From the NCBI GenBank assembly GCA_032622095.1, contig CP136062.1, forward strand, positions 35,030,918-35,094,917: a stretch of DNA of 64,000 nt. Reading direction: 5' to 3'. A model generated the notes under the pieces. It was given only the letters and a program-made list of their open reading frames with translations, made no database searches and was not told where the DNA came from. The stretch's first letter is position 1. Each line of letters starts with the position of its first letter. The DNA is from Siphonodentalium dalli (Eukaryota; Mollusca; Scaphopoda; Gadilida; Siphonodentaliidae). Positions 1-36,284 of the stretch are shown one piece after another. The position numbers and the translations under genes are program-made.

Positions 1-486
1 TAGTATGTCTATATATACATATACACATTAAATAACACAATACAACGCTCTTTATCAATGGGTTTCCTTTATATTCAATGTATATATAATTAATGTATTC
101 TCTACAATTATATACTAGTAATAGGTTATAGATATTAAACAATATCGTGATTTAGCCTAATGTTTGATTATCAGCGTGGCTTGATAACATGGAGGAAACA
201 TTAAATTATATAATTTGGAAAATGTTTACTACGATCAAGCCGAAAATGGTCTTTAGAATGTTGGGAATCAGAAAATAATAAACAGCATGGGTTATCAAGA
301 GAGCATCTCTAGTTTAAACGAACTTCAAATACAGAACGTTTGTTTGTGGTTTCGGTTCTAATTCTCCCGACCTAATATGATCACTAGAGAAAGAACCGTG
401 CAGTTCAGAATTACCGAACTACACCCTAGCTGAAAATGGGCCAGAGTAACCTCGTAATCAAGCACACGTAGATTTTCAAACGATTG

Positions 487-498
487 ATCGCGCGCGAT
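487..498. other. GC palindrome in the satellite unit
   Basis: ATCGCGCGCGAT is a perfect 12-bp palindrome in otherwise AT-rich DNA. It is found at the same offset in every unit except the terminal unit 13, where it reads ATCGTACGCGAT. Confidence 0.85.
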
Positions 499-914
499 GG
501 TGCACCAAAAAACCGTACAGTATAAACCTGTATGTCGCGTACCGGTATAATAATATGTAAGTTTGTAATTGTTAATTTTTGTTCCTCCCTGGATATAGGT
601 TGGATTTAACGTCCATCTGAATAGCAATTTTTTAGAAACAGTTCTTGGGAGTAATCCGAGTTCAGATAAAGTTAACAATATTGAATTTATAGGAATCGAG
701 CTGTCAAGTAGAATGAAACAAAGTTACCTTAATTTGTTGATTTACATGGTCGAAGTGTTATCCATTGTCCGAAGCATATATAACACATATGGTAGCGAAT
801 AGACAGCCACCACTTCCAGAAAGAAAACCAAACAATGTCTGAATGTATCACAGGCAAAATGGAACCCCACTCCGTTGTATTGCAGCAGAGGTTGTTTTGG
901 GGAAATAACGTTGA

Positions 915-945
915 TGAGTCATATGACGTAATCGCGCGCGACGTC
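915..945. promoter_or_regulatory. AP-1/CRE-like and CpG palindrome cluster in each satellite unit
   Basis: TGAGTCA (915-921) is followed at once by TGACGTAA (924-931), TCGCGCGCGA (932-941) and GACGTC (940-945). TGAGTCA and TGACGTAA match the consensus sites of AP-1 and ATF/CREB bZIP factors. The cluster is repeated unchanged in all 13 units. No promoter or transcript can be shown from sequence, so the regulatory reading is inference. Confidence 0.35.
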
Positions 946-1860
946 GTTGATATGTGCTGTTAACCACAAACCTGCCAAATTAGTTATCTATAATGATTCA
1001 GTATCCAGAAAAGGAACAGTGTTTACCGTGGCAGGGATTGTTTAATTAAATCAATGTATTGCAGCCCAAGGTGTATCTAGGTGAAACAAAGGAAATCAAA
1101 CCATAAAAAGTAGTCAAACTCAAACTTTAATGTAACTAAATATAATGTAAGAGTTGTCCCTATAAACTGAGTCATTGTTAAACTGTCAAACGTCTAATGA
1201 TCAAAAGACTCCTCTAAAGCGGGTGACCAGGAACACCGAGTTCCATATCATATTAGTTTTGTGATACCCATAAACATATGAGCAGAGGGATGCTCGTATC
1301 CCGGTTCCACAGTAGAGGCACCCCTGTCTTGGATTCCGGTAGTGGAACATCACTAATGGTATCCAGAGCAGTCTGCCTTGCGGCAGTTTACAAATGTCAT
1401 GATATGAGTAACAAAAACATAGAATATACCAGTCTAGACTACCTTGGATTAATCGCTCTTTATCATATTCTCGTATAAAACCCAACGAAAACCGCAGACG
1501 CTCTTTATCCATGATGTGGCATATTCGCCGGAAACGAACCAACAACATGTATAACTCATGTTAAAATTGGTCGGGCGGATTCCAAATCCTAACTATACCC
1601 GTTTATTAGTCCAGTAAATTTCCAGACCAAACTCCAGCCAATTAAGTTAAACCCACCAAACACCTCATAGGGAGATGAACAAGGGAGAGAATACCAACAA
1701 AAAGGGGGCCATAGCTATATATGGTCGAAGTTGGCCAGCGGTCCCAGAATATGGACCCGACCTGTCTCTGTATATAGTATACCCAAATACCAAAATTACA
1801 TGTTATCCAGTTGATACTTTATAAAGTTATTATCCATAAGTCAAAATCGAGTATATGGAT

Positions 1861-1882
1861 GGACAGACCGACAGACGGACAG
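1861..1882. repeat. GACAGAC-rich segment inside the satellite unit
   Basis: A run of GGACAGAC-type words followed by ATTAATA, present in each unit. Such words are typical of short interspersed repeats in molluscs and other invertebrates, so this part of the unit may derive from one. Inference only. Confidence 0.4.
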
Positions 1883-2373
1883 ATTAATAATATAATAAAA
1901 TGCGTCCATATTCTTTTTTAATTTAAACATATGTTGCACGCGGAGTTTGAGTTTCCGATATTATGCATCACATCTAATGGTATTAAACAATACATACACG
2001 TGTTATGCATGCATGCTAGGGTGGAAATTCCAGATAATCGTAACAATCATGCTTAATATACATAATTTGCATATAAACCGTCGACAACCGCTTTTTGGGT
2101 GGTATTGTATGATTATGGAGCCAATTATCAGAAAGTAACTACACTGTTCCAAGAGGTAAACATTGCGTTGTTGATTACTCACACTATCGTGGCAAGGTTA
2201 TTTTGTTATCTTGTCATCGGAGGTACCGTTGTTCATATAGGGAGGATAGCCAATATACTATACCTGTTATTGAAACATAGAATTTAAAGGATTAAGAACC
2301 GTTTGCATACATTGTTATATGGGGACAAACCCAGGAGAAAATATAAGTGTTTATATATAGGAGGGACTTAATT

Positions 2374-4745
2374 TAGTATGTCTATATATACATATACACA
2401 TTAAATAACACAATACAACGCTCTTTATCAATGGGTTTCCTTTATATTCAATGTATATATAATTAATGTATTCTCTACAATTATATACTAGTAATAGGTT
2501 ATAGATCTTAAACAATATCGTGATTTAGCCTAATGTTTGATTATCAGCGTGGCTTGATAACATGGAGGAAACATTAAATTATATAATTTGGAAAATGTTT
2601 ACTACGATCAAGCCGAAAATGGTCTTTAGAATGTTGGGAATCAGAAAATAATAAACAGCATGGGTTATCAAGAGAGCATCTCTAGTTTAAACGAACTTCA
2701 AATACAGAACGTTTGTTTGTGGTTTCGGTTCTAATGCTCCCGACCTAATATGATCACTAGAGAAAGAACCGTGCAGTTCAGAATTACCGAACTACACCCC
2801 AGCTGAAAATGGGCCAGAGTAACCTCGTAATCAAGCACACGTAGATCTTCAAACGATTGATCGCGCGCGATGGTGCACCAAAAAACCGTACAGTATAAAC
2901 CTGTATGTCGCGTACCGGTATAATAATATGTAAGTTTGTAATTGTTAAATTTTGTTCCCCCTGGATATAGGTTGGATTTAACGTCCATCTGAATAGCAAT
3001 TTTTTAGAAACAGTTCTTGGGAGTAATCCGAGTTCAGATAAAGTTAACAATATTGAATTTATAGGAATCGAGCTGTCAAGTAGAATGAAACAAAGTTACC
3101 TTAATTTGTTGATTTACATGGTCGAAGTGTTATCCATTGTCCGAAGCATATATAACACATATGGTAGCGAATAGACAGCCACCACGTCTAGAAAGAAAAC
3201 CAAACAATGTCTGAATGTATCACAGGCAAAATGGAACCCCACTCCGTTGTATTGCAGCAGAGGTTGTTTTGGGGAAATAACGTTGATGAGTCATATGACG
3301 TAATCGCGCGCGACGTCGTTGATATGTGCTGTTAACCACAAACCTGCCAAATTAGTTATCTATAATGATTCAGTATCCAGAAAAGGAACAGTGTTTACCG
3401 TGGCAGGGATTGTTTAATTAAATCAATGTATTGCAGCCCAAGGTGTATCTAGGTGAAACAAAGGAAATCAAACCATAAAAAGTAGTCAAACTCAAACTTT
3501 AATGTAACTAAATATAATGTAAGAGTTGTCCCTATAAACTGAGTCATTGTTAAACTGTCAAACGTCTAATGATCAAAAGACTCCTCTAAAGCGGATGACC
3601 AGGAACACCGAGTTCCATATCATATTAGTTTTGTGATACCCATAAACATATGAGCAGAGGGATGCTCGTATCCCGGTTCCACAGTAGAGGCACCCCTGTC
3701 TTGGATTCCGGTAGTGGAACATCACTAATGGTATCCAGAGCAGTCTGCCTTGCGGCAGTTTACAAATGTCATGATATGAGTAACAAAAACATAGAATATA
3801 CCAGTCTAGACTACCTTGGATTAATCGCTCTTTATCATATTCTCGTATAAAACCCAACGAAAACCGCAGACGCTCTTTATCCATGATGTGGCATATTCGC
3901 CGGAAACGAACCAACAACATGTATAACTCATGTTAAAATTGGTCGGGCGGATTCCAAATCCTAACTATACCCGTTTATTAGTCCAGTAAATTTCCAGACC
4001 AAACTCCAGCCAATTAAGTTAAACCCACCAAACACCTCATAGGGAGATGAACAAGGGAGAGAATACCAACAAAATGGGGGCCATAGCTATATATGGTCGA
4101 AGTTGGCCAGCGGTCCCAGAATATGGACCCGACCTGTCTCTGTATATAGTATACCCAAATACCAAAATTACATGTTATCCAGTTGATACTTTATAAAGTT
4201 ATTATCCATAAGTCAAAATCGAGTATATGGATGGACAGACCGACAGACGGACAGATTAATACTATAATAAAATGCGTCCATATTCTTTTTTAATTTAAAC
4301 ATATGTTGCACGCGGAGTTTGAGTTTCCGATATTATGCATCACATCTAATGGTATTAAACAATACATACACGTGTTATGCATGCATGCTAGGGTGGAAAT
4401 TCCAGATAATCGTAACAATCATGCTTAATATACATAATTTGCATATAAACCGTCGACAACCGCTTTTTGGGTGGTATTGTATGATTATGGAGCCAATTAT
4501 CAGAAAGTAACTACACTGTTCCAAGAGGTAAACATTGCGTTGTTGATTACTCACACTATCGTGGCAAGGTTATTTAGTTATCTTGTCATCGGAGGTACCG
4601 TTGTTCATATAGGGAGGATAGCCAATATACTATACCTGTTATTGAAACATAGAATTTAAAGGATTAAGAACCGTTTGCATACATTGTTATATGGGGACAA
4701 ACCCAGGAGAAAATATAAGTGTTTATATATAGGAGGGACTTAATT
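2374..4745. repeat. Satellite unit 2
   Basis: Unit of 2372 bp with the GTTAAATTTTGTTCCCCC variant. It shares with unit 3 alone the changes CACGTCTAG, GCGGATGACC, AAAATGGGGG and TATTTAGTTATC. Units 2 and 3 look identical or nearly so, which points to a very recent duplication or gene conversion. Confidence 0.93.
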
Positions 4746-7117
4746 TAGTATGTCTATATATACATATACACATTAAATAACACAATACAACGCTCTTTAT
4801 CAATGGGTTTCCTTTATATTCAATGTATATATAATTAATGTATTCTCTACAATTATATACTAGTAATAGGTTATAGATCTTAAACAATATCGTGATTTAG
4901 CCTAATGTTTGATTATCAGCGTGGCTTGATAACATGGAGGAAACATTAAATTATATAATTTGGAAAATGTTTACTACGATCAAGCCGAAAATGGTCTTTA
5001 GAATGTTGGGAATCAGAAAATAATAAACAGCATGGGTTATCAAGAGAGCATCTCTAGTTTAAACGAACTTCAAATACAGAACGTTTGTTTGTGGTTTCGG
5101 TTCTAATGCTCCCGACCTAATATGATCACTAGAGAAAGAACCGTGCAGTTCAGAATTACCGAACTACACCCCAGCTGAAAATGGGCCAGAGTAACCTCGT
5201 AATCAAGCACACGTAGATCTTCAAACGATTGATCGCGCGCGATGGTGCACCAAAAAACCGTACAGTATAAACCTGTATGTCGCGTACCGGTATAATAATA
5301 TGTAAGTTTGTAATTGTTAAATTTTGTTCCCCCTGGATATAGGTTGGATTTAACGTCCATCTGAATAGCAATTTTTTAGAAACAGTTCTTGGGAGTAATC
5401 CGAGTTCAGATAAAGTTAACAATATTGAATTTATAGGAATCGAGCTGTCAAGTAGAATGAAACAAAGTTACCTTAATTTGTTGATTTACATGGTCGAAGT
5501 GTTATCCATTGTCCGAAGCATATATAACACATATGGTAGCGAATAGACAGCCACCACGTCTAGAAAGAAAACCAAACAATGTCTGAATGTATCACAGGCA
5601 AAATGGAACCCCACTCCGTTGTATTGCAGCAGAGGTTGTTTTGGGGAAATAACGTTGATGAGTCATATGACGTAATCGCGCGCGACGTCGTTGATATGTG
5701 CTGTTAACCACAAACCTGCCAAATTAGTTATCTATAATGATTCAGTATCCAGAAAAGGAACAGTGTTTACCGTGGCAGGGATTGTTTAATTAAATCAATG
5801 TATTGCAGCCCAAGGTGTATCTAGGTGAAACAAAGGAAATCAAACCATAAAAAGTAGTCAAACTCAAACTTTAATGTAACTAAATATAATGTAAGAGTTG
5901 TCCCTATAAACTGAGTCATTGTTAAACTGTCAAACGTCTAATGATCAAAAGACTCCTCTAAAGCGGATGACCAGGAACACCGAGTTCCATATCATATTAG
6001 TTTTGTGATACCCATAAACATATGAGCAGAGGGATGCTCGTATCCCGGTTCCACAGTAGAGGCACCCCTGTCTTGGATTCCGGTAGTGGAACATCACTAA
6101 TGGTATCCAGAGCAGTCTGCCTTGCGGCAGTTTACAAATGTCATGATATGAGTAACAAAAACATAGAATATACCAGTCTAGACTACCTTGGATTAATCGC
6201 TCTTTATCATATTCTCGTATAAAACCCAACGAAAACCGCAGACGCTCTTTATCCATGATGTGGCATATTCGCCGGAAACGAACCAACAACATGTATAACT
6301 CATGTTAAAATTGGTCGGGCGGATTCCAAATCCTAACTATACCCGTTTATTAGTCCAGTAAATTTCCAGACCAAACTCCAGCCAATTAAGTTAAACCCAC
6401 CAAACACCTCATAGGGAGATGAACAAGGGAGAGAATACCAACAAAATGGGGGCCATAGCTATATATGGTCGAAGTTGGCCAGCGGTCCCAGAATATGGAC
6501 CCGACCTGTCTCTGTATATAGTATACCCAAATACCAAAATTACATGTTATCCAGTTGATACTTTATAAAGTTATTATCCATAAGTCAAAATCGAGTATAT
6601 GGATGGACAGACCGACAGACGGACAGATTAATACTATAATAAAATGCGTCCATATTCTTTTTTAATTTAAACATATGTTGCACGCGGAGTTTGAGTTTCC
6701 GATATTATGCATCACATCTAATGGTATTAAACAATACATACACGTGTTATGCATGCATGCTAGGGTGGAAATTCCAGATAATCGTAACAATCATGCTTAA
6801 TATACATAATTTGCATATAAACCGTCGACAACCGCTTTTTGGGTGGTATTGTATGATTATGGAGCCAATTATCAGAAAGTAACTACACTGTTCCAAGAGG
6901 TAAACATTGCGTTGTTGATTACTCACACTATCGTGGCAAGGTTATTTAGTTATCTTGTCATCGGAGGTACCGTTGTTCATATAGGGAGGATAGCCAATAT
7001 ACTATACCTGTTATTGAAACATAGAATTTAAAGGATTAAGAACCGTTTGCATACATTGTTATATGGGGACAAACCCAGGAGAAAATATAAGTGTTTATAT
7101 ATAGGAGGGACTTAATT
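4746..7117. repeat. Satellite unit 3
   Basis: Unit of 2372 bp carrying the same private set of changes as unit 2. It has the GTTAAATTTTGTTCCCCC variant that also marks units 6, 9 and 12, and so is the third member of the first trimer. Confidence 0.93.
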
Positions 7118-9490
7118 TAGTATGTCTATATATACATATACACATTAAATAACACAATACAACGCTCTTTATCAATGGGTTTCCTTTATATTCAATGTAT
7201 ATATAATTAATGTATTCTCTACAATTATATACTAGTAATAGGTTATAGATCTTAAACAATATCGTGATTTAGCCTAATGTTTGATTATCAGCGTGGCTTG
7301 ATAACATGGAGGAAACATTAAATTATATAATTTGGAAAATGTTTACTACGATCAAGCCGAAAATGGTCTTTAGAATGTTGGGAATCAGAAAATAATAAAC
7401 AGCATGGGTTATCAAGAGAGCATCTCTAGTTTAAACGAACTTCAAATACAGAACGTTTGTTTGTGGTTTCGGTTCTAATGCTCCCGACCTAATATGATCA
7501 CTAGAGAAAGAACCGTGCAGTTCAGAATTACCGAACTACACCCCAGCTGAAAATGGGCCAGAGTAACCTCGTAATCAAGCACACGTAGATTTTCAAACGA
7601 TTGATCGCGCGCGATGGTGCACCAAAAAACCGTACAGTATAAACCTGTATGTCGCGTACCGGTATAATAATATGTAAGTTTGTAATTGTTAATTTTTGTT
7701 CCTCCCTGGATATAGGTTGGATTTAAAGTCCATCTGAATAGCAATTTTTTAGAAACAGTTCTTGTAAGTAATCCGAGTTCAGATAAAGTTAACAATATTG
7801 AATTTATAGGAATCGAGCTGTCAAGTAGAATGAAACAAAGTTACCTTAATTTGTTGATTTACATGGTCGAAGTGTTATCCATTGTCCGAAGCATATATAA
7901 CACATATGGTAGCGAATAGACAGCCACCACTTCCAGAAAGAAAACCAAACAATGTCTGAATGTATCACAGGCAAAATGGAACCCCACTCCGTTGTATTGC
8001 AGCAGAGGTTGTTTTGGGGAAATAACGTTGATGAGTCATATGACGTAATCGCGCGCGACGTCGTTGATATGTGCTGTTAACCACAAACCTGCCAAATTAG
8101 TTATCTATAATGATTCAGTATCCAGAAAAGGAACAGTGTTTACCGTGGCAGGGATTGTTTAATTAAATCAATGTATTGCAGCCCAAGGTGTATCTAGGTG
8201 AAACAAAGGAAATCAAACCATAAAAAGTAGTCAAACTCAAACTTTAATGTAACTAAATATAATGTAAGAGTTGTCCCTATAAACTGAGTCATTGTTAAAC
8301 TGTCAAACGTCTAATGATCAAAAGACTCCTCTAAAGCGGGTGACCAGGAACACCGAGTTCCATATCATATTAGTTTTGTGATACCCATAAACATATGAGC
8401 AGAGGGATGCTCGTATCCCGGTTCCACAGTAGAGGCACCCCTGTCTTGGATTCCGGTAGTGGAACATCACTAATGGTATCCAGAGCAGTCTGCCTTGCGG
8501 CAGTTTACAAATGTCATGATATGAGTAACAAAAACATAGAATATACCAGTCTAGACTACCTTGGATTAATCGCTCTTTATCATGTTCTCGTATAAAACCC
8601 AACGAAAACCGCAGACGCTCTTTATCCATGATGTGGCATATTCGCCGGAAACGAACCAACAACATGTATAACTCATGTTAAAATTGGTCGGGCGGATTCC
8701 AAATCCTAACTATACCCGTTTATTAGTCCAGTAAATTTCCAGACCAAATTCCAGCCAATTAAGTTAAACCCACCAAAAACCTCATAGGGAGATGAACAAG
8801 GGAGAGAATACCAACAAAAAGGGGGCCATAGCTATATATGGTCGAAGTTGGCCAGCGGTCCCAGAATATGGACCCGACCTGTCTCTGTATATAGTATACC
8901 CAAATACCAAAATTACATGTTATCCAGTTGATACTTTATAAAGTTATTATCCATAAGTCAAAATCGAGTATATGGATGGACAGACCGACAGACGGACAGA
9001 TTAATAATATAATAAAATGCGTCCATATTCTTTTTTAATTTAAACATATGTTGCACGCGGAGTTTGAGTTTCCGATATTATGCATCACATCTAATGGTAT
9101 TAAACAATACATACACTTGTTATGCATGCATGCTAGGGTGGAAATTCCAGATAATCGTAACAATCATGCTTAATATACATAATTTGCATATAAACCGTCG
9201 ACAACCGCTTTTTGGGTGGTATTGTATGATTATGGAGCCAATTATCAGAAAGTAACTACACTGTTCCAAGAGGTAAACATTGCGTTGTTGATTACTCACA
9301 CTATCGTGGCAAGGTTATTTTGTTATCTTGTCATCGGAGGTACCGTTGTTCATATAGGGAGGATAGCCAATATACTATACCTGTTATTGAAACATAGAAT
9401 TTAAAGGATTAAGAACCGTTTGCATACATTGTTATATGGGGACAAACCCAGGAGAAAATATAAGTGTTTATATATAGGAGGGACTTAATT
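7118..9490. repeat. Satellite unit 4
   Basis: Unit of 2373 bp with AAAGTCC, TGTAAGTAA, CATGTTCTC and CAAAAACCTC variants. It is nearly the same as unit 5 and of the same class as units 8 and 11. It occupies the first slot of its trimer but carries second-slot markers, as if converted by its neighbour. Confidence 0.93.
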
Positions 9491-11863
9491 TAGTATGTCT
9501 ATATATACATATACACATTAAATAACACAATACAACGCTCTTTATCAATGGGTTTCCTTTATATTCAATGTATATATAATTAATGTATTCTCTACAATTA
9601 TATACTAGTAATAGGTTATAGATCTTAAACAATATCGTGATTTAGCCTAATGTTTGATTATCAGCGTGGCTTGATAACATGGAGGAAACATTAAATTATA
9701 TAATTTGGAAAATGTTTACTACGATCAAGCCGAAAATGGTCTTTAGAATGTTGGGAATCAGAAAATAATAAACAGCATGGGTTATCAAGAGAGCATCTCT
9801 AGTTTAAACGAACTTCAAATACAGAACGTTTGTTTGTGGTTTCGGTTCTAATGCTCCCGACCTAATATGATCACTAGAGAAAGAACCGTGCAGTTCAGAA
9901 TTACCGAACTACACCCCAGCTGAAAATGGGCCAGAGTAACCTCGTAATCAAGCACACGTAGATTTTCAAACGATTGATCGCGCGCGATGGTGCACCAAAA
10001 AACCGTACAGTATAAACCTGTATGTCGCGTACCGGTATAATAATATGTAAGTTTGTAATTGTTAATTTTTGTTCCTCCCTGGATATAGGTTGGATTTAAA
10101 GTCCATCTGAATAGCAATTTTTTAGAAACAGTTCTTGTAAGTAATCCGAGTTCAGATAAAGTTAACAATATTGAATTTATAGGAATCGAGCTGTCAAGTA
10201 GAATGAAACAAAGTTACCTTAATTTGTTGATTTACATGGTCGAAGTGTTATCCATTGTCCGAAGCATATATAACACATATGGTAGCGAATAGACAGCCAC
10301 CACTTCCAGAAAGAAAACCAAACAATGTCTGAATGTATCACAGGCAAAATGGAACCCCACTCCGTTGTATTGCAGCAGAGGTTGTTTTGGGGAAATAACG
10401 TTGATGAGTCATATGACGTAATCGCGCGCGACGTCGTTGATATGTGCTGTTAACCACAAACCTGCCAAATTAGTTATCTATAATGATTCAGTATCCAGAA
10501 AAGGAACAGTGTTTACCGTGGCAGGGATTGTTTAATTAAATCAATGTATTGCAGCCCAAGGTGTATCTAGGTGAAACAAAGGAAATCAAACCATAAAAAG
10601 TAGTCAAACTCAAACTTTAATGTAACTAAATATAATGTAAGAGTTGTCCCTATAAACTGAGTCATTGTTAAACTGTCAAACGTCTAATGATCAAAAGACT
10701 CCTCTAAAGCGGGTGACCAGGAACACCGAGTTCCATATCATATTAGTTTTGTGATACCCATAAACATATGAGCAGAGGGATGCTCGTATCCCGGTTCCAC
10801 AGTAGAGGCACCCCTGTCTTGGATTCCGGTAGTGGAACATCACTAATGGTATCCAGAGCAGTCTGCCTTGCGGCAGTTTACAAATGTCATGATATGAGTA
10901 ACAAAAACATAGAATATACCAGTCTAGACTACCTTGGATTAATCGCTCTTTATCATGTTCTCGTATTAAACCCAACGAAAACCGCAGACGCTCTTTATCC
11001 ATGATGTGGCATATTCGCCGGAAACGAACCAACAACATGTATAACTCATGTTAAAATTGGTCGGGCGGATTCCAAATCCTAACTATACCCGTTTATTAGT
11101 CCAGTAAATTTCCAGACCAAATTCCAGCCAATTAAGTTAAACCCACCAAAAACCTCATAGGGAGATGAACAAGGGAGAGAATACCAACAAAAAGGGGGCC
11201 ATAGCTATATATGGTCGAAGTTGGCCAGCGGTCCCAGAATATGGACCCGACCTGTCTCTGTATATAGTATACCCAAATACCAAAATTACATGTTATCCAG
11301 TTGATACTTTATAAAGTTATTATCCATAAGTCAAAATCGAGTATATGGATGGACAGACCGACAGACGGACAGATTAATAATATAATAAAATGCGTCCATA
11401 TTCTTTTTTAATTTAAACATATGTTGCACGCGGAGTTTGAGTTTCCGATATTATGCATCACATCTAATGGTATTAAACAATACATACACTTGTTATGCAT
11501 GCATGCTAGGGTGGAAATTCCAGATAATCGTAACAATCATGCTTAATATACATAATTTGCATATAAACCGTCGACAACCGCTTTTTGGGTGGTATTGTAT
11601 GATTATGGAGCCAATTATCAGAAAGTAACTACCCTGTTCCAAGAGGTAAACATTGCGTTGTTGATTACTCACACTATCGTGGCAAGGTTATTTTGTTATC
11701 TTGTCATCGGAGGTACCGTTGTTCATATAGGGAGGATAGCCAATATACTATACCTGTTATTGAAACATAGAATTTAAAGGATTAAGAACCGTTTGCATAC
11801 ATTGTTATATGGGGACAAACCCAGGAGAAAATATAAGTGTTTATATATAGGAGGGACTTAATT
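9491..11863. repeat. Satellite unit 5
   Basis: Unit of 2373 bp of the CATGTTCTC class (with 4, 8 and 11). Private changes include CGTATTAAACCC near 10963, which removes a stop codon and lengthens one ORF, and CTACCCTG near 11630. Confidence 0.93.
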
Positions 11864-14235
11864 TAGTATGTCTATATATACATATACACATTAAATAACA
11901 CAATACAACGCTCTTTATCAATGGGTTTCCTTTATATTCAATGTATATATAATTAATGTATTCTCTACAATTATATACTAGTAATAGGTTATAGATCTTA
12001 AACAATATCGTGATTTAGCCTAATGTTTGATTATCAGCGTGGCTTGATAACATGGAGGAAACATTAAATTATATAATTTGGAAAATGTTTACTACGATCA
12101 AGCCGAAAATGGTCTTTAGAATGTTGGGAATCAGAAAATAATAAACATCATGGGTTATCAAGAGAGCATCTCTAGTTTAAACGAACTTCAAATACAGAAC
12201 GTTTGTTTGTGGTTTCGGTTCTAATGCTCCCGACCTAATATGATCACTAGAGAAAGAACCGTGCAGTTCAGAATTACCGAACTACACCCCAGCTGAAAAT
12301 GGGCCAGAGTAACCTCGTAATCAAGCACACGTAGATTTTCAAACGATTGATCGCGCGCGATGGTGCACCAAAAAACCGTACAGTATAAACCTGTATGTCG
12401 CGTACCGGTATAATAATATGTAAGTTTGTAATTGTTAAATTTTGTTCCCCCTGGATATAGGTTGGATTTAACGTCCATCTAAATAGCATTTTTTTAGAAA
12501 CAGTTCTTGGGAGTAATCCGAGTTCAGATAAAGTTAACAATATTGAATTTATAGGAATCGAGCTGTCAAGTAGAATGAAACAAAGTTACCTTAATTTGTT
12601 GATTTACATGGTCGAAGTGTTATCCATTGTCCGAAGCATATATAACACATATGGTAGCGAATAGACAGCCACCACTTCCAGAAAAAAAACCAAACAATGT
12701 CTGAATGTATCACAGGCAAAATGGAACCCCACTCCGTTGTATTGCAGCAGAGGTTGTTTTGGGGAAATAACGTTGATGAGTCATATGACGTAATCGCGCG
12801 CGACGTCGTTGATATGTGCTGTTAACCACAAACCTGCCAAATTAGTTATCTATAATGATTCAGTATCCAGAAAAGGAACAGTGTTTACCGTGGCAGGGAT
12901 TGTTTAATTAAATCAATGTATTGCAGCCCAAGGTGTATCTAGGTGAAACAAAGGAAATCAAACCATAAAAAGTAGTCAAACTCAAACTTTAATGTAACTA
13001 AATATAATGTAAGAGTTGTCCCTATAAACTGAGTCATTGTTAAACTGTCAAACGTCTAATGATCGAAAGACTCCTCTAAAGCGGGTGACCAGGAACACCG
13101 AGTTCCATATCATATTAGTTTTGTGATACCCATAAACATATGAGCAGAGGGATGCTCGTATCCCGGTTCCACAGTAGAGGCACCCCTGTCTTGGATTCCG
13201 GTAGTGGAACATCACTAATGGTATCCAGAGCAGTCTGCCTTGCGGCAGTTTACAAATGTCATGATATGAGTAACAAAAACATAGAATATACCAGTCTAGA
13301 CTACCTTGGATTAATCGCTCTTTATCATATTCTCGTATAAAACCCAACGAAAACCGCAGACGCTCTTTATCCATGATGTGGCATATTCGCCGGAAACGAA
13401 CCAACAACATGTATAACTCATGTTAAAATTGGTCGGGCGGATTCCAAATCCTAACTATACCCGTTTATTAGTCCAGTAAATTTCCAGACCAAACTCCAGC
13501 CAATTAAGTTAAACCCACCAAACACCTCATAGGGAGATGAACAAGGGAGAGAATACCAACAAAAAGGGGGCCATAGCTATATATGGTCGAAGTTGGCCAG
13601 CGGTCCCAGAATATGGACCCGACCTGTCTCTGTATATAGTATACCCAAATACCAAAATTACATGTTATCCAGTTGATACTTTATAAAGTTATTATCCATA
13701 AGTCAAAATCGAGTATATGGATGGACAGACCGACAGACGGACAGATTAATACTATAATAAAATGCGTCCATATTCTTTTTTAATTTAAACATATGTTGCA
13801 CGCGGAGTTTGAGTTTCCGATATTATGCATCACATCTAATGGTATTAAACAATACATACACGTGTTATGCATGCATGCTAGGGTGGAAATTCCAGATAAT
13901 CGTAACAATCATGCTTAATATACATAATTTGCATATAAACCGTCGACAACCGCTTTTCGGGTGGTATTGTATGATTATGGAGCCAATTATCAGAAAGTAA
14001 CTACACTGTTCCAAGAGGTAAACATTGCGTTGTTGATTACTCACACTATCGTGGCAAGGTTATTTTGTTATCTTGTCATCGGAGGTACCGTTGTTCATAT
14101 AGGAAGGATAGCCAATATACTATACCTGTTATTGAAACATAGAATTTAAAGGATTAAGAACCGTTTGCATACATTGTTATATGGGGACAAACCCAGGAGA
14201 AAATATAAGTGTTTATATATAGGAGGGACTTAATT
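11864..14235. repeat. Satellite unit 6
   Basis: Unit of 2372 bp of the third-slot class: GTTAAATTTTGTTCCCCC plus AACATCATGGG, a marker seen only in units 6, 9 and 12. Private changes include AGCATTTTTTTAG near 12485 and GATCGAAAG near 13062. Confidence 0.93.
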
Positions 14236-16609: not shown

Positions 16610-18982
16610 TAGTATGTCTATATATACATATACACATTAAATAACACAATACAACGCTCTTTATCAATGGGTTTCCTTTATATTCAATGTATATATAATT
16701 AATGTATTCTCTACAATTATATACTAGTAATAGGTTATAGATCTTAAACAATATCGTGATTTAGCCTAATGTTTGATTATCAGCGTGGCTTGATAACATG
16801 GAGGAAACATTAAATTATATAATTTGGGAAATGTTTACTACGATCAAGCCGAAAATGGTCTTTAGAATGTTGGGAATCAGAAAATAATAAACAGCATGGG
16901 TTATCAAGAGAGCATCTCTAGTTTAAACGAACTTCAAATACAGAACGTTTGTTTGTGGTTTCGGTTCTAATGCTCCCGACCTAATATGATCACTAGAGAA
17001 AGAACCGTGCAGTTCAGAATTACCGAACTACACCCCAGCTGAAAATGGGCCAGAGTAACCTCGTAATCAAGCACACGTAGATTTTCAAACGATTGATCGC
17101 GCGCGATGGTGCACCAAAAAACCGTACAGTATAAACCTGTATGTCGCGTACCGGTATAATAATATGTAAGTTTGTAATTGTTAATTTTTGTTCCTCCCTG
17201 GATATAGGTTGGATTTAAAGTCCATCTGAATAGCAATTTTTTAGAAACAGTTCTTGTAAGTAATCCGAGTTCAGATAAAGTTAACAATATTGAATTTATA
17301 GGAATCGAGCTGTCAAGTAGAATGAAACAAAGTTACCTTAATTTGTTGATTTACATGGTCGAAGTGTTATCCATTGTCCGAAGCATATATAACACATATG
17401 GTAGCGAATAGACAGCCACCACTTCCAGAAAGAAAACCAAACAATGTCTGAATGTATCACAGGCAAAATGGAACCCCACTCCGTTGTATTGCAGCAGAGG
17501 TTGTTTTGGGGAAATAACGTTGATGAGTCATATGACGTAATCGCGCGCGACGTCGTTGATATGTGCTGTTAACCACAAACCTGCCAAATTAGTTATCTAT
17601 AATGATTCAGTATCCAGAAAAGGAACAGTGTTTACCGTGGCAGGGATTGTTTAATTAAATCAATGTATTGCAGCCCAAGGTGTATCTAGGTGAAACAAAG
17701 GAAATCAAACCATAAAAAGTAGTCAAACTCAAACTTTAATGTAACTAAATATAATGTAAGAGTTGTCCCTATAAACTGAGTCATTGTTAAACTGTCAAAC
17801 GTCTAATGATCAAAAGACTCCTCTAAAGCGGGTGACCAGGAACACCGAGTTCCATATCATATTAGTTTTGTGATACCCATAAACATATGAGCAGAGGGAT
17901 GCTCGTATCCCGATTCCACAGTAGAGGCACCCCTGTCTTGGATTCCGGTAGTGGAACATCACTAATGGTATCCAGAGCAGTCTGCCTTGCGGCAGTTTAC
18001 AAATGTCATGATATGAGTAACAAAAACATAGAATATACCAGTCTAGACTACCTTGGATTAATCGCTCTTTATCATGTTCTCGTATAAAACCCAACGAAAA
18101 CCGCAGACGCTCTTTATCCATGATGTGGCATATTCGCCGGAAACGAACCAACAACATGTATAACTCATGTTAAAATTGGTCGGGCGGATTCCAAATCCTA
18201 ACTATACCCGTTTATTAGTCCAGTAAATTTCCAGACCAAATTCCAGCCAATTAAGTTAAACCCACCAAAAACCTCATAGGGAGATGAACAAGGGAGAGAA
18301 TACCAACAAAAAGGGGGCCATAGCTATATATGGTCGAAGTTGGCCAGCGGTCCCAGAATATGGACCCGACCTGTCTCTGTATATAGTATACCCAAATACC
18401 AAAATTACATGTTATCCAGTTGATACTTTATAAAGTTATTATCCATAAGTCAAAATCGAGTATATGGATGGACAGACCGACAGACGGACAGATTAATAAT
18501 ATAATAAAATGCGTCCATATTCTTTTTTAATTTAAACATATGTTGCACGCGGAGTTTGAGTTTCCGATATTATGCATCACATCTAATGGTATTAAACAAT
18601 ACATACACTTGTTATGCATGCATGCTAGGGTGGAAATTCCAGATAATCGTAACAATCATGCTTAATATACATAATTTGCATATAAACCGTCGACAACCGC
18701 TTTTTGGGTGGTATTGTATGATTATGGAGCCAATTATCAGAAAGTAACTACACTGTTCCAAGAGGTAAACATTGCGTTGTTGATTACTCACACTATCGTG
18801 GCAAGGTTATTTTGTTATCTTGTCATCGGAGGTACCGTTGTTCATATAGGGAGGATAGCCAATATACTATACCTGTTATTGAAACATAGAATTTAAAGGA
18901 TTAAGAACCGTTTGCATACATTGTTATATGGGGACAAACCCAGGAGAAAATATAAGTGTTTATATATAGGAGGGACTTAATT
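16610..18982. repeat. Satellite unit 8
   Basis: Unit of 2373 bp of the CATGTTCTC class. It shares TCCCGATTCC (near 17910) only with unit 11, and AATTTGGGAA with units 10 and 11. Confidence 0.93.
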
Positions 18983-21355
18983 TAGTATGTCTATATATAC
19001 ATATACACATTAAATAACACAATACAACGCTCTTTATCAATGGGTTTCCTTTATATTCAATGTATATATAATTAATGTATTCTCTACAATTATATACTAG
19101 TAATAGGTTATAGATCTTAAACAATATCGTGATTTAGCCTAATGTTAGATTATCAGCGTGGCTTGATAACATGGAGGAAACATTAAATTATATAATTTGG
19201 AAAATGTTTACTACGATCAAGCCGAAAATGGTCTTTAGAATATTGGGAATCAGAAAATAATAAACATCATGGGTTATCAAGAGAGCATCTCTAGTTTAAA
19301 CGAACTTCAAATACAGAACGTTTGTTTGTGGTTTCGGTTCTAATGCTCCCGACCTAATATAATCACTAGAGAAAGAACCGTGCAGTTCAGAATTACCGAA
19401 CTACACCCCAGCTGAAAATGGGCCAGAGTAACCTCGTAATCAAGCACACGTAGATTTTCAAACGATTGATCGCGCGCGATGGTGCACCAAAAAACCGTAC
19501 AGTATAAACCTGTATGTCGCGTACCGGTATAATAATATGTAAGTTTGTAATTGTTAAATTTTGTTCCCCCTGGATATAGGTTGGATTTAACGTCCATCTG
19601 AATAGCAATTTTTTAGAAACAGTTCTTGGGAGTAATCCGAGTTCAGATAAAGTTAACAATATTGAATTTATAGGAATCGAGCTGTCAAGTAGAATGAAAC
19701 AAAGTTACCTTAATTTGTTGATTTACATGGTCGAAGTGTTATCCATTGTCCGAAGCATATATAACACATATGGTAGCGAATAGACAGCCACCACTTCCAG
19801 AAAGAAAACCAAACAATGTCTGAATGTATCACAGGCAAAATGGAACCCCACTCCGTTGTATTGCAGCAGAGGTTGTTTTGGGGAAATAACGTTGATGAGT
19901 CATATGACGTAATCGCGCGCGACGTCGTTGATATGTGCTGTTAACCACAAACCTGCCAAATTAGTTATCTATAATGATTCAGTATCCAGAAAAGGAACAG
20001 TGTTTACCGTGGCAGGGATTGTTTAATTAAATCAATGTATTGCAGCCCAAGGTGTATCTAGGTGAAACAAAGGAAATCAAACCATAAAAAGTAGTCAAAC
20101 TCAAACTTTAATGTAACTAAATATAATGTAAGAGTTGTCCCTATAAACTGAGTCATTGTTAAACTGTCAAACGTCTAATGATCAAAAGACTCCTCTAAAG
20201 CGGGTGACCAGGAACACCGAGTTCCATATCATATTAGTTTTGTGATACCCATAAACATATGAGCAGAGGGATGCTCGTATCCCGGTTCCACAGTAGAGGC
20301 ACCCCTGTCTTGGATTCCGGTAGTGGAACATCACTAATGGTATCCAGAGCAGTCTGCCTTGCGGCAGTTTACAAATGTCATGATATGAGTAACAAAAACA
20401 TAGAATATACCAGTCTAGACTACCTTGGATTAATCGCTCTTTATCATATTCTCGTATAAAACCCAACGAAAACCGCAGACGCTCTTTATCCATGATGTGG
20501 CATATTCGCCGGAAACGAACCAACAACATGTATAACTCATGTTAAAATTGGTCGGGCGGATTCCAAATCCTAACTATACCCGTTTATTAGTCCAGTAAAT
20601 TTCCAGACCAAATTCCAGCCAATTAAGTTAAACCCACCAAACACCTCATAGGGAGATGAACAAGGGAGAGAATACCAACAAAAAGGGGGCCATAGCTATA
20701 TATGGTCGAAGTTGGCCAGCGGTCCCAGAATATGGACCCGACCTGTCTCTGTATATAGTATACCCAAATACCAAAATTACATGTTATCCAGTTGATACTT
20801 TATAAAGTTATTATCCATAAGTCAAAATCGAGTATATGGATGGACAGACCGACAGACGGACAGATTAATAATATAATAAAATGCGTCCATATTCTTTTTT
20901 AATTTAAACATATGTTGCACGCGGAGTTTGAGTTTCCGATATTATGCATCACATCTAATGGTATTAAACAATACATACACTTGTTATGCATGCATGCTAG
21001 GGTGGAAATTCCAGATAATCGTAACAATCATGCTTAATATACATAATTTGCATATAAACCGTCGACAACCGCTTTTTTGGGTGGTATTGTATGATTATGG
21101 AGCCAATTATCAGAAAGTAACTACACTGTTCCAAGAGGTAAACATTGCGTTGTTGATTACTCACACTATCGTGGCAAGGTTATTTTGTTATCTTGTCATC
21201 GGAGGTACCGTTGTTCATATAGGGAGGATAGCCAATATACTATACCTGTTACTGAAACATAGAATTTAAAGGATTAAGAACCGTTTGCATACATTGTTAT
21301 ATGGGGACAAACCCAGGAGAAAATATAAGTGTTTATATATAGGAGGGACTTAATT
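18983..21355. repeat. Satellite unit 9
   Basis: Unit of 2373 bp of the third-slot class (AACATCATGGG and GTTAAATTTTGTTCCCCC). It carries the longer T run seen in units 7 and 10, plus private changes at ATGTTAGATT and GAATATTGGG. Confidence 0.93.
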
Positions 21356-23729
21356 TAGTATGTCTATATATACATATACACATTAAATAACACAATACAA
21401 CGCTCTTTATCAATGGGTTTCCTTTATATTAAATGTATATATAATTAATGTATTCTCTACAATTATATACTAGTAATAGGTTATAGATCTTAAACAATAT
21501 CGTGATTTAGCCTAATGTTTGATTATCAGCGTGGCTTGATAACATGGAGGAAACATTAAATTATATAATTTGGGAAATGTTTACTACGATCAAGCCGAAA
21601 ATGGTCTTTAGAATGTTGGGAATCAGAAAATAATAAACAGCATGGGTTATCAAGAGAGCATCTCTAGTTTAAACGAACTTCAAATACAGAACGTTTGTTT
21701 GTGGTTTCGTTTCTAATGCTCCCGACCTAATATGATCACTAGAGAAAGAACCGTGCAGTTCAGAATTACCGAACTACACCCCAGCTGAAAATGGGCCAGA
21801 GTAACCTCGTAATCAAGCACACGTAGATTTTCAAACGATTGATCGCGCGCGATGGTGCACCAAAAAACCGTACAGTATAAACCTGTATGTCGCGTACCGG
21901 TATAATAATATGTAAGTTTGTAATTGTTAATTTTTGTTCCTCCCTGGATATAGGTTGGATTTAAAGTCCATCTGAATAGCAATTTTTTAGAAACAGTTCT
22001 TGTAAGTAATCCGAGTTCAGATAAAGTTAACAATATTGAATTTATAGGAATCGAGCTGTCAAGTAGAATGAAACAAAGTTACCTTAATTTGTTGATTTAC
22101 ATGGTCGAAGTGTTATCCATTGTCCGAAGCATATATAACACATATGGTAGCGAATAGACAGCCACCACTTCCAGAAAGAAAACCAAACAATGTCTGAATG
22201 TATCACAGGCAAAATGGAACCCCACTCCGTTGTATTGCAGCAGAGGTTGTTTTGGGGAAATAACGTTGATGAGTCATATGACGTAATCGCGCGCGACGTC
22301 GTTGATATGTGCTGTTAACCACAAACCTGCCAAATTAGTTATCTATAATGATTCAGTATCCAGAAAAGGAACAGTGTTTACCGTGGCAGGGATTGTTTAA
22401 TTAAATCAATGTATTGCAGCCCAAGGTGTATCTAGGTGAAACAAAGGAAATCAAACCATAAAAAGTAGTCAAACTCAAACTTTAATGTAACTAAATATAA
22501 TGTAAGAGTTGTCCCTATAAACTGAGTCATTGTTAAACTGTCAAACGTCTAATGATCAAAAGACTCCTCTAAAGCGGGTGACCAGGAACACCGAGTTCCA
22601 TATCATATTAGTTTTGTGATACCCATAAACATATGAGCAGAGGGATGCTCGTATCCCGGTTCCACAGTAGAGGCACCCCTGTCTTGGATTCCGGTAGTGG
22701 AACATCACTAATGGTATCCAGAGCAGTCTGCCTTGCGGCAGTTTACAAATGTCATGATATGAGTAACAAAAACATAGAATATACCAGTCTAGACTACCTT
22801 GGATTAATCGCTCTTTATCATATTCTCGTATAAAACCCAACGAAAACCGCAGACGCTCTTTATCCATGATGTGGCATATTCGCCGGAAACGAACCAACAA
22901 CATGTATAACTCATGTTAAAATTGGTCGGGCGGATTCCAAATCCTAACTATACCCGTTTATTAGTCCAGTAAATTTCCAGACCAAATTCCAGCCAATTAA
23001 GTTAAACCCACCAAACACCTCATAGGGAGATGAACAAGGGAGAGAATACCAACAAAAAGGGGGCCATAGCTATATATGGTCGAAGTTGGCCAGCGGTCCC
23101 AGAATATGGACCCGACCTGTCTCTGTATATAGTATACCCAAATACCAAAATTACATGTTATCCAGTTGATACTTTATAAAGTTATTATCCATAAGTCAAA
23201 ATCGAGTATATGGATGGACAGACCGACAGACGGACAGATTAATAATATAATAAAATGCGTCAATATTCTTTTTTAATTTAAACATATGTTGCACGCGGAG
23301 TTTGAGTTTCCGATATTATGCATCACATCTAATGGTATTAAACAATACATACACTTGTTATGCATGCATGCTAGGGTGGAAATTCCAGATAATCGTAACA
23401 ATCATGCTTAATATACATAATTTGCATATAAACCGTCGACAACCGCTTTTTTGGGTGGTATTGTATGATTATGGAGCCAATTATCAGAAAGTAACTACAC
23501 TGTTCCAAGAGGTAAACATTGCGTTGTTGATTACTCACACTATCGTGGCAAGGTTATTTTGTTATCTTGTCATCGGAGGTACCGTTGTTCATATAGGGAG
23601 GATAGCCAATATACTATACCTGTTATTGAAACATAGAATTTAAAGGATTAAGAACCGTTTGCATACATTGTTATATGGGGACAAACCCAGGAGAAAATAT
23701 AAGTGTTTATATATAGGAGGGACTTAATT
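21356..23729. repeat. Satellite unit 10
   Basis: Unit of 2374 bp with the longer T run; counterpart of unit 7. Private changes include TATATTAAATG near 21430 and GCGTCAATATT near 23258. Confidence 0.93.
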
Positions 23730-26102
23730 TAGTATGTCTATATATACATATACACATTAAATAACACAATACAACGCTCTTTATCAATGGGTTTCCTTTA
23801 TATTCAATGTATATATAATTAATGTATTCTCTACAATTATATACTAGTAATAGGTTATAGATCTTAAACAATATCGTGATTTAGCCTAATGTTTGATTAT
23901 CAGCGTGGCTTGATAACATGGAGGAAACATTAAATTATATAATTTGGGAAATGTTTACTACGATCAAGCCGAAAATGGTCTTTAGAATGTTGGGAATCAG
24001 AAAATAATAAACAGCATGGGTTATCAAGAGAGCATCTCTAGTTTAAACGAACTTCAAATACAGAACGTTTGTTTGTGGTTTCGGTTCTAATGCTCCCGAC
24101 CTAATATGATCACTAGAGAAAGAACCGTGCAGTTCAGAATTACCGAACTACACCCCAGCTGAAAATGGGCCAGAGTAACCTCGTAATCAAGCACACGTAG
24201 ATTTTCAAACGATTGATCGCGCGCGATGGTGCACCAAAAAACCGTACAGTATAAACCTGTATGTCGCGTACCGGTATAATAATATGTAAGTTTGTAATTG
24301 TTAATTTTTGTTCCTCCCTGGATATAGGTTGGATTTAAAGTCCATCTGAATAGCAATTTTTTAGAAACAGTTCTTGTAAGTAATCCGAGTTCAGATAAAG
24401 TTAACAATATTGAATTTATAGGAATCGAGCTGTCAAGTAGAATGAAACAAAGTTACCTTAATTTGTTGATTTACATGGTCGAAGTGTTATCCATTGTCCG
24501 AAGCATATATAACACATATGGTAGCGAATAGACAGCCACCACTTCCAGAAAGAAAACCAAACAATGTCTGAATGTATCACAGGCAAAATGGAACCCCACT
24601 CCGTTGTATTGCAGCAGAGGTTGTTTTGGGGAAATAACGTTGATGAGTCATATGACGTAATCGCGCGCGACGTCGTTGATATGTGCTGTTAACCACAAAC
24701 CTGCCAAATTAGTTATCTATAATGATTCAGTATCCAGAAAAGGAACAGTGTTTACCGTGGCAGGGATTGTTTAATTAAATCAATGTATTGCAGCCCAAGG
24801 TGTATCTAGGTGAAACAAAGGAAATCAAACCATAAAAAGTAGTCAAACTCAAACTTTAATGTAACTAAATATAATGTAAGAGTTGTCCCTATAAACTGAG
24901 TCATTGTTAAACTGTCAAACGTCTAATGATCAAAAGACTCCTCTAAAGCGGGTGACCAGGAACACCGAGTTCCATATCATATTAGTTTTGTGATACCCAT
25001 AAACATATGAGCAGAGGGATGCTCGTATCCCGATTCCACAGTAGAGGCACCCCTGTCTTGGATTCCGGTAGTGGAACATCACTAATGGTATCCAGAGCAG
25101 TCTGCCTTGCGGCAGTTTACAAATGTCATGATATGAGTAACAAAAACATAGAATATACCAGTCTAGACTACCTTGGATTAATCGCTCTTTATCATGTTCT
25201 CGTATAAAACCCAACGAAAACCGCAGACGCTCTTTATCCATGATGTGGCATATTCGCCGGAAACGAACCAACAACATGTATAACTCATGTTAAAATTGGT
25301 CGGGCGGATTCCAAATCCTAACTATACCCGTTTATTAGTCCAGTAAATTTCCAGACCAAATTCCAGCCAATTAAGTTAAACCCACCAAAAACCTCATAGG
25401 GAGATGAACAAGGGAGAGAATACCAACAAAAAGGGGGCCATAGCTATATATGGTCGAAGTTGGCCAGCGGTCCCAGAATATGGACCCGACCTGTCTCTGT
25501 ATATAGTATACCCAAATACCAAAATTACATGTTATCCAGTTGATACTTTATAAAGTTATTATCCATAAGTCAAAATCGAGTATATGGATGGACAGACCGA
25601 CAGACGGACAGATTAATAATATAATAAAATGCGTCCATATTCTTTTTTAATTTAAACATATGTTGCACGCGGAGTTTGAGTTTCCGATATTATGCATCAC
25701 ATCTAATGGTATTAAACAATACATACACTTGTTATGCATGCATGCTAGGGTGGAAATTCCAGATAATCGTAACAATCATGCTTAATATACATAATTTGCA
25801 TATAAACCGTCGACAACCGCTTTTTGGGTGGTATTGTATGATTATGGAGCCAATTATCAGAAAGTAACTACACTGTTCCAAGAGGTAAACATTGCGTTGT
25901 TGATTACTCACACTATCGTGGCAAGATTATTTTGTTATCTTGTCATCGGAGGTACCGTTGTTCATATAGGGAGGATAGCCAATATACTATACCTGTTATT
26001 GAAACATAGAATTTAAAGGATTAAGAACCGTTTGCATACATTGTTATATGGGGACAAACCCAGGAGAAATTATAAGTGTTTATATATAGGAGGGACTTAA
26101 TT
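23730..26102. repeat. Satellite unit 11
   Basis: Unit of 2373 bp, counterpart of unit 8 (TCCCGATTCC and CATGTTCTC). Private changes include GGCAAGATTATT near 25925 and GGAGAAATTATAAG near 26065. Confidence 0.93.
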
Positions 26103-28475
26103 TAGTATGTCTATATATACATATACACATTAAATAACACAATACAACGCTCTTTATCAATGGGTTTCCTTTATATTCAATGTATATATAATTAATGTAT
26201 TCTCTACAATTATATACTAGTAATAGGTTATAGATCTTAAACAATATCGTGATTTAGCCTAATGTTTGATTATCAGCGTGGCTTGATAACATGGAGGAAA
26301 CATTAAATTATATAATTTGGAAAATGTTTACTACGATCAAGCCGAAAATGGTCTTTAGAATGTTGGGAATCAGAAAATAATAAACATCATGGGTTATCAA
26401 GAGAGCATCTCTAGTTTAAACGAACTTCAAATACAGAACGTTTGTTTGTGGTTTCGGTTCTAATGCTCCCGACCTAATATGATCACTAGAGAAAGAACCG
26501 TGCAGTTCAGAATTACCGAACTACACCCCAGCTGAAAATGGGCCAGAGTAACCTCGTAATCAAGCACACGTAGATTTTCAAACGATTGATCGCGCGCGAT
26601 GGTGCACCAAAAAACCGTACAGTATAAACCTGTATGTCGCGTACCGGTATAATAATATGTAAGTTTGTAATTGTTAAATTTTGTTCCCCCTGGATATAGG
26701 TTGGATTTAACGTCCATCTGAATAGCAATTTTTTAGAAACAGTTCTTGGGAGTAATCCGAGTTCAGATAAAGTTAACAATATTGAATTTATAGGAATCGA
26801 GCTGTCAAGTAGAATGAAACAAAGTTACCTTAATTTGTTGATTTACATGGTCGAAGTGTTATCCATTGTCCGAAGCATATATAACACATATGGTAGCGAA
26901 TAGACAGCCACCACTTCCAGAAAGAAAACCAAACAATGTCTGAATGTATCACAGGCAAAATGGAACCCCACTCCGTTGTATTGCAGCAGAGGTTGTTTTG
27001 GGGAAATAACGTTGATGAGTCATATGACGTAATCGCGCGCGACGTCGTTGATATGTGCTGTTAACCACAAACCTGCCAAATTAGTTATCTATAATGATTC
27101 AGTATCCAGAAAAGGAACAGTGTTTACCGTGGCAGGGATTGTTTAATTAAATCAATGTATTGCAGCCCAAGGTGTATCTAGGTGAAACAAAGGAAATCAA
27201 ACCATAAAAAGTAGTCAAACTCAAACTTTAATGTAACTAAATATAATGTAAGAGTTGTCCCTATAAACTGAGTCATTGTTAAACTGTCAAACGTCTAATG
27301 ATCAAAAGACTCCTCTAAAGCGGGTGACCAGGAACACCGAGTTCCATATCATATTAGTTTTGTGATACCCATAAACATATGAGCAGAGGGATGCTCGTAT
27401 CCCGGTTCCACAGTAGAGGCACCCCTGTCTTGGATTCCGGTAGTGGAACATCACTAATGGTATCCAGAGCAGTCTGCCTTGCGGCAGTTTACAAATGTCA
27501 TGATATGAGTAACAAAAACATAGAATATACCAGTCTAGACTACCTTGGATTAATCGCTCTTTATCATATTCTCGTATAAAACCCCTTCGAAAACCGCAGA
27601 CGCTCTTTATCCATGATGTGGCATATTCGCCGGAAACGAACCAACAACATGTATAACTCATGTTAAAATTGGTCGGGCGGATTCCAAATCCTAACTATAC
27701 CCGTTTATTAGTCCAGTAAATTTCCAGACCAAATTCCAGCCAATTAAGTTAAACCCACCAAACACCTCATAGGGAGATGAACAAGGGAGAGAATACCAAC
27801 AAAAAGGGGGCCATAGCTATATATGGTCGAAGTTGGCCAGCGGTCCCAGAATATGGACCCGACCTGTCTCTGTATATAGTATACCCAAATACCAAAATTA
27901 CATGTTATCCAGTTGATACTTTATAAAGTCATTATCCATAAGTCAAAATCGAGTATATGGATGGACAGACCGACAGACGGACAGATTAATAATATAATAA
28001 AATGCGTCCATATTCTTTTTTAATTTAAACATATGTTGCACGCGGAGTTTGAGTTTCCGATATTATGCATCACATCTAATGGTATTAAACAATACATACA
28101 CGTGTTATGCATGCATGCTAGGGTGGAAATTCCAGATAATCGTAACAATCATGCTTAATATACATAATTTGCATATAAACCGTCGACAACCGCTTTTTGG
28201 GTGGTATTGTATGATTATGGAGCCAATTATCAGAAAGTAACTACACTGTTCCAAGAGGTAAACATTGCGTTGTTGATTACTCACACTATCGTGGCAAGGT
28301 TATTTTGTTATCTAGTCATCGGAGGTACCGTTGTTCATATAGGGAGGATAGCCAATATACTATACCTGTTATTGAAACATAGAATTTAAAGGATTAAGAA
28401 CCGTTTGCATACATTGTTATATGGGGACAAACCCAGGAGAAAATATAAGTGTTTATATATAGGAGGGACTTAATT
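26103..28475. repeat. Satellite unit 12
   Basis: Unit of 2373 bp, counterpart of units 6 and 9. A private ACCCCTTCGAAAAC near 27582 replaces ACCCAACGAAAAC and shifts the frame of the largest minus-strand ORF, leaving its far end different. Confidence 0.93.
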
Positions 28476-33014: not shown

Positions 33015-33235
33015 TTGCTACCATATTGGATCCATACAGCCCCCATACGTGGTTTAATGGTAACAGGTAAAATTTCCGGAGTAGCAGTCCATGTATGTAG
33101 TTTTGAATATTCATGAATTCCATACATGAAATTCATAAATATTCAAAAGCTCTATATATGGAATGCTACTCCATAATTTTGACTTGTAGCACTGAATGTG
33201 CGGAATGGGGCTGGATGGTTCCAATATGGTAGCAA
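33015..33235. mobile_element. Foldback (MITE-like) element, 221 bp
   Basis: The two halves are imperfect reverse complements centred near 33125. TTGCTACCATATTGGA at 33015 pairs with TCCAATATGGTAGCAA ending at 33235. GGAGTAGCA at 33078 pairs with TGCTACTCC ending at 33172, and TTTTGAATATT pairs with AATATTCAAAA. No target duplication is clear, and arm decay suggests an old insertion. Confidence 0.7.
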
Positions 33236-35941: not shown

Positions 35942-36100
35942 GCTGCCCTTCTGGGTATGACCAAACATACTGTACCAAGTACTACAACACTCTGAAGACG
36001 AGAAGCGACGCCAAACAGCAGTGTGAATCGGATGGTGGACATTTGGCAGAGATCGCAAACCCATGCATGCACGCCTACATTACACCACAACTCGGATACA
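35942..36100 (+). CDS. C-type lectin domain protein, exon encoding the N-terminal half of the domain
   Basis: The exon is bounded by a TTGCATGCAG acceptor (AG at 35940-35941) and a GTAAGT donor at 36101. It is 159 bp with both ends in phase 1. It encodes the first half of a C-type lectin-like domain: CPSGYDQTYC (paired cysteines of the long-form domain), then AKQQCESDGGHLAEI, matching the family pattern A..C...GG.LA.I. The tryptophan usual before the A..C block is absent. The second half lies 13.1 kb away at 49223-49428 and joins in frame through an AAT codon. A signal peptide and any upstream exons were not found. Such single-domain lectins in molluscs are usually secreted recognition or shell-matrix proteins; which one this is cannot be told. 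The intron starts with a TTAA-flanked transposon only 5 bases after the exon. Confidence 0.85.
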
Positions 36101-36136
36101 GTAAGTTAACCCTTTACCCAACAGAAGGCCCCTGTG

Positions 36137-36203: not shown

Positions 36204-36284
36204 TTTAACACATTAAAAATTATAAAATTGTTAAAGAATGTAAGAAAAAATGGTAAAAAGTGTTAAAAAAATATTTTGTTTAGG

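Follow-up and report, generated by a model that had tools for sequence, protein, structure and literature searches.

In the scaphopod mollusc Siphonodentalium dalli, the window that we analysed, i.e. the whole stretch of 64,000 nucleotides, starts with a tandem array of a 2.37-kb repeat. The question raised by this locus is whether the units of the array are ordered in blocks of three, forming a trimeric higher-order repeat, and what kind of process could have produced such an order.

Structure and content of the array

Thirteen head-to-tail copies of the 2.37-kb repeat, all in a single orientation (plus strand), fill positions 1-30,513. Twelve of them are full units of 2,372-2,374 bp, and each of the other units is 99.3-99.6% identical to unit 1. 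With many highly similar copies in head-to-tail order, the array has the make-up of a long-monomer satellite. The last copy, unit 13 (28,476-30,513), is a partial unit of 2,038 bp that ends at unit position 2038 and forms the array edge; a sequence-only reading had placed the end of the array at 28,475, which is one partial unit too early. Unit 13 also has the most private changes: 10 over the first 2,030 alignment columns, where the other units have 0-4.

The right flank (30,514-64,000) is without further copies of the unit. The best matches between the flank and the unit are only 14 bp long (E 0.3), and no sequence is common to both sides of the junction between the array and the right flank. 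Among the right-flank open reading frames, none scored above the Pfam family cut-off (19 of the 70 frames of at least 70 amino acids were scanned).

Judged from its sequence, the unit is probably noncoding, with the reservation that a gene made of small exons or belonging to an unlisted family could escape these scans. The longest open frame is 121 amino acids, a length equalled in 14% of 300 random sequences. No Rfam family matched the unit, and no Pfam match was found at E up to 1 in the scan of 11 of its 21 listed open reading frames of at least 45 amino acids. An array of genes (rRNA, tRNA, snRNA or protein) is unsupported by the scans, the one for tRNA having been run in bacterial mode. 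A composition of shorter subrepeats was also rejected, as the autocorrelation of the unit has no standout offset, and the internal repeats are only two-copy repeats of 14-20 nt. In a comparison with a plasmid collection (distant mode) nothing matched, and two exact strings from the unit were absent from the viral contigs.

Haplotype order and three-unit periodicity

The alignment of the units contains 56 variable columns, of which 20 are informative. By kind there are 27 transition, 26 transversion and 3 indel columns; most differences are single-base changes and not homopolymer indels. Using letters of our own for the haplotypes, the order of units 1-13 is X C' C' / B B C / A B C / A B C / Y. 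The C haplotype is marked by columns 285, 576 and 586, and C' is C without the state at 285. Columns 610, 648 and 649 mark A and B together, and B is further marked by columns 1467 and 1662; units 8 and 11 have the marker at 1304 as well.

Two clean A B C trimers are found, units 7-9 (14,236-21,355) and units 10-12 (21,356-28,475), each of 7120 bp on the plus strand. They are preceded by a modified trimer B B C, units 4-6 (7118-14,235, plus strand), in which unit 4 is of the B type rather than A and differs from unit 5 at two sites, both private to unit 5. The first three units (1-7117, plus strand; 2373, 2372 and 2372 bp) carry the haplotypes X, C' and C'. Unit 1 is not an A unit, the A/B block being missing. 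Units 2 and 3 do not differ at any site. Unit 3 matches the C position at two columns alone (576/586) and differs from units 6, 9 and 12 at 13-15 sites.

It had been proposed that the array expands as trimers that start at 1, 7118, 14236 and 21356. These positions are correct unit starts and the periodicity is there, mainly in units 4-12, but four trimers is an overstatement: just two are clean and one is modified, units 1, 2 and 13 misfit, and unit 3 fits by two columns. The proposal was built on four marker strings, all of which we located exactly, GTTAAATTTTGTTCCCCC in units 2, 3, 6, 9 and 12, AACATCATGGG in units 6, 9 and 12, TCCCGATTCC in units 8 and 11, and CATGTTCTC in units 4, 5, 8 and 11, with no occurrence elsewhere in the window on either strand. 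The markers and boundaries are sound, but the regularity of four trimers is not. The four strings span just five variable columns (576, 586, 285, 1304 and 1467), and a handful of markers can lend such a pattern more regularity than it really has. Similarly, the unit lengths 2374/2373/2373 do repeat in units 7-9 and 10-12, but that units 9 and 12 are equally long is partly a coincidence. The base at column 586 is missing from both, and unit 9 gains a base at 2093 and unit 12 one at 1481; as different insertions lie on top of a shared deletion, the match in length is not independent support.

The periodicity can be measured with all variable columns. For units 1-12 the mean numbers of differences per pair at lags 1-6 are 11.6, 14.0, 9.0, 12.8, 14.9 and 11.5, where a random unit order would give 12.8. 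Shuffling the order of the units gives p = 0.010 (0.00995) at lag 3 for units 1-12, and p = 0.004 for units 1-13 over the first 2,030 columns, both uncorrected for six lags; with the six-lag correction these become ~0.06 and ~0.02. For units 4-12 the lag-3 value is p = 0.0009, in a range that was picked after seeing the data. All other lags from 1 to 6 have p of at least 0.14 in all three sets of units. In the sense that units i and i+n are closer than neighbours, beyond chance, the array behaves as a higher-order repeat at lag 3. Unit by unit, i is nearer to i+3 than to i+1 for seven of the nine units, as would be expected for a trimer, but not for units 2 and 4. Within units 4-12 there are 12 informative sites; six are perfectly period-3 and three agree at 5/6 steps, while sites 219, 2001 and 2093 agree at 4/6, 4/6 and 3/6 steps. 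That the period-3 signal is real, rather than a chance order of units, is probable rather than overwhelming.

The contrast between C and A/B lies mostly in one stretch of ~365 bp, columns 285-649. Such confinement is what one might see if the haplotypes were arranged by chance and the units kept alike by gene conversion, with a three-unit block never having been copied. A second group of sites (1304, 1467 and 1662) backs the same period, however, and we regard a chance arrangement as unlikely.

A stricter definition of a higher-order repeat asks for blocks that are much more alike than the monomers. Units 7-9 and 10-12 are 99.75% identical (18 differing sites), units 4-6 and 7-9 99.69% (22 differing sites), and units 4-6 and 10-12 99.64%. 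The identity between neighbouring units is 99.51%, i.e. a divergence of 0.49% compared with 0.25-0.31% between adjacent trimer blocks. The contrast (99.69-99.75% against 99.51%) goes in the right direction and is small, which makes the array a borderline case under this definition. The identity of units 1-3 to units 4-6, 99.42%, is about the background level, so this first block does not count as a further copy of the trimer. The phase of the trimer is arbitrary: when the blocks are cut as 3-5, 6-8 and 9-11, successive blocks differ at 21 and 21 sites, compared with 22 and 18 for 4-6, 7-9 and 10-12. A block repeated many times in order is not what the window contains, with two clean A B C blocks and one B B C block among 13 units; additional copies of the trimer may be present outside the window.

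In an array of 99.5% identical units, misordering, haplotype switching or polishing during assembly might have made or blurred the pattern. The near-identity of the units gives room for this, in particular the exact identity of units 2 and 3, with an exact run of 3,017 columns at lag 1. However, had a 7.1-kb block been repeated falsely, its copies would match exactly, while the adjacent trimers differ at 18 and 22 positions, and the differences are mostly single-base changes. An assembly artefact appears quite improbable to us.

Relationships among units and origin of the pattern

In a tree built from the 12 full units, the A/B clade has a support of 98, units 8+11 of 88, units 2+3 of 100 and units 4+5 of 68. 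The clade of the C units, 6+9+12, is weakly supported, with a value of 34 in the best tree; in the consensus tree unit 6 joins units 2+3 (48) instead. Clustering of adjacent units, which would speak against a trimer, is seen in part: units 2 and 3 are mutual nearest neighbours and unit 5 is nearest to unit 4, which itself is equally near to units 5 and 8. Units 2 and 4 had been thought to be converted by a neighbour. This is possible, but a single-unit duplication fits their whole-unit near-identity equally well.

Not all sites fit one tree. The four-gamete test fails for 16 of the 190 site pairs, although seven of the 16 failures involve the indel at 2093, where a recurrent change is plausible. 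Unit 6 has the C markers in its left part and the states of units 2-3 at 1633/1891/2001 in its right part, and resembles a mosaic that joins a C unit to a unit of the 2-3 type. Both the failures and the mosaic are expected from exchange or conversion between units.

The three positions of the trimer are not equally conserved. Pairs differ at 4-7 sites among units 4, 7 and 10, at 2-6 sites among units 5, 8 and 11, and at 11-14 sites among units 6, 9 and 12, whereas copying of whole A B C blocks alone should give equal differences at all three. Units 6, 9 and 12 have 15 private changes and the six A/B units eight, an excess with a binomial p of 0.003 by site and 0.016 when changes within 10 bp are merged. 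The likeliest source of part of the A/B similarity would be an exchange between A and B units that continued after the trimer was formed and erased private changes.

We consider it likely that the array is a local and incipient trimeric higher-order repeat, itself functionless, that arose by out-of-register exchange of several units in an ordinary noncoding satellite with long monomers. Blocks of units would have been duplicated by homologous exchange out of register, either between sister chromatids or by unequal crossing over. An offset of three units in one or two such events could account for the A B C order of units 4-12, and the near-identical pairs 2/3 and 4/5 could have come from single-unit duplications or conversions. 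This process, unequal exchange generating repeat patterns, was reportedly proposed by Smith in 1976, a work cited in PMC4053949.

We simulated arrays under neutral duplication and deletion of blocks, with assumed array sizes and rates, so that the results show only what neutral exchange can do. A multi-unit pattern was called when some lag from 2 to 6 had a p of 0.01 or lower and fewer differences than lag 1; with p 0.00995, the real array clears this threshold only narrowly. Runs that showed no variation were left out, namely 2 of the 600 in two settings of 300 runs and none elsewhere. With random blocks averaging 1.5-5 units, the multi-unit pattern appeared in 6-18% of the runs per setting, and the pattern at lag 3 in 1-5%. 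Single-unit duplication gave no multi-unit pattern in 320 runs (120 + 200). Conversion alone, as in the chance arrangement discussed above and as the 16 four-gamete failures would permit, led to multi-unit patterns in 5 of 120 runs when any lag was counted. Its lag-3 pattern was seen in 0 of 120, a loose comparison given that the simulated arrays had a median of 21 differences and the real array has a mean of 12.8. Multi-unit exchange is thus the best maker of the pattern, and neither selection nor a preferred trimer is needed. The idea of an array that expands as trimers is partly supported, in that the three-unit periodicity is present and multi-unit exchange explains it best, but its extent is overstated.

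Comparison with known repeats

Could the array instead be part of an established and functional trimeric higher-order repeat, such as the margin of a centromeric array whose repeat unit is 7.1 kb long? The period-3 order of units 4-12, and trimer copies that are slightly more similar than neighbours, would agree with this. We find it barely credible, given that only two copies are clean, that the contrast in identity is small (99.7% and 99.5%), and that units 1-3 fit worst although they are farther from the visible edge, where homogenisation should be better. Furthermore, the eight strongest offsets within the unit include none of 170-180 bp. It is also highly improbable that we see the frayed edge of a large array in which the true unit is a 7.12-kb trimer kept in order, possibly centromeric, in an animal; if true, a 7.12-kb trimer of 2.37-kb monomers would be an unusually long higher-order repeat.

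A trimeric higher-order repeat on a monomer of this length had been called unusual, a claim that is weak in view of the systems reported elsewhere. A survey of animals and plants reports higher-order repeats in 76 of the 171 species for which Sanger data existed, and its authors name polymorphism plus the pattern of recombination within the array as the cause (PMC4053949). As here, multimers were more alike than monomers; the repeats of the survey were found inside single Sanger reads, so the monomers were short, and blocks of three or more were rarely seen owing to the limited read length (PMC4053949).

Primate alpha satellite resembles the present array in having monomer types in a fixed order and blocks more alike than adjacent monomers. 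Its monomer is 171 bp (PMC4053949), compared with 2.37 kb here, and its monomers are described as ~70% identical within a block and up to 97-100% between blocks (PMC8122249). The contrast here, 99.5% against 99.7%, is far smaller, and only two clean copies are present. In the beetle Chrysolina carnifex, another invertebrate, a trimeric higher-order repeat is described with a 211-bp monomer and a 633-bp trimer (PMC8122249), and complex higher-order repeats are described in nematodes (PMC3694981). Closest in monomer length is the potato 2D8 repeat, with monomers of ~3 kb in a 5.9-kb dimeric higher-order unit; it is a dimer in a plant, homologous to the rDNA spacer, with monomers of unequal AT content, as summarised in PMC8122249. 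The human DXZ4 macrosatellite, likened here by its description, consists of tandem 3-kb units that are not obviously protein coding, in an array confined to the human X chromosome. Among the titles and abstract openings retrieved from an open-access library, none dealt with a trimeric higher-order repeat on a monomer of ~2.4 kb, which does not prove that no such case has been published. A trimer on a 2.37-kb monomer is a combination of features that are already known.

Nothing in the sequence by itself points to a function. Two clean blocks, two pairs of near-identical neighbours and one mosaic unit can still be read in the array, and the locus illustrates on a small scale how a higher-order repeat on a kilobase-long monomer may begin through multi-unit exchange.

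Inverted repeats to the right of the array

Six inverted repeats were found in the flank to the right of the satellite array. In five of them (36130-36358, 39373-39521, 41056-41201, 47155-47343 and 51527-51691) the arms measure 71-80 nt, with 88-97% complementarity between the two; these five look like small foldback elements. The arms of the sixth, 33015-33235, are only 73% complementary.

Other features of the right flank

An ORF on the forward strand, 35905-36213, has a weak similarity to C-type lectins. It matches a macrophage mannose receptor chain at an E-value of 0.0004, and the Pfam Lectin_C match (E = 0.032) is under the cut-off. This similarity hints that the DNA comes from an animal. 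The 3' part of the ORF enters a foldback repeat.

The flank also contains a 300-nt direct repeat with 99% identical copies spaced by 3,900 bp (42756-43055 and 46656-46955), a 35-bp unit duplicated in tandem (48773-48843, 2.0 copies, 100% matches) and a minisatellite of 5.2 copies of a 14-bp unit (63409-63481, 94% matches).

The terminal satellite unit

Unit 13, the partial unit that ends the array (28476-30513), carries ten private changes, i.e. differences found in a single unit of the alignment, while every other unit has between zero and four in the same columns. This excess is consistent with poorer homogenisation at the edge of the array.
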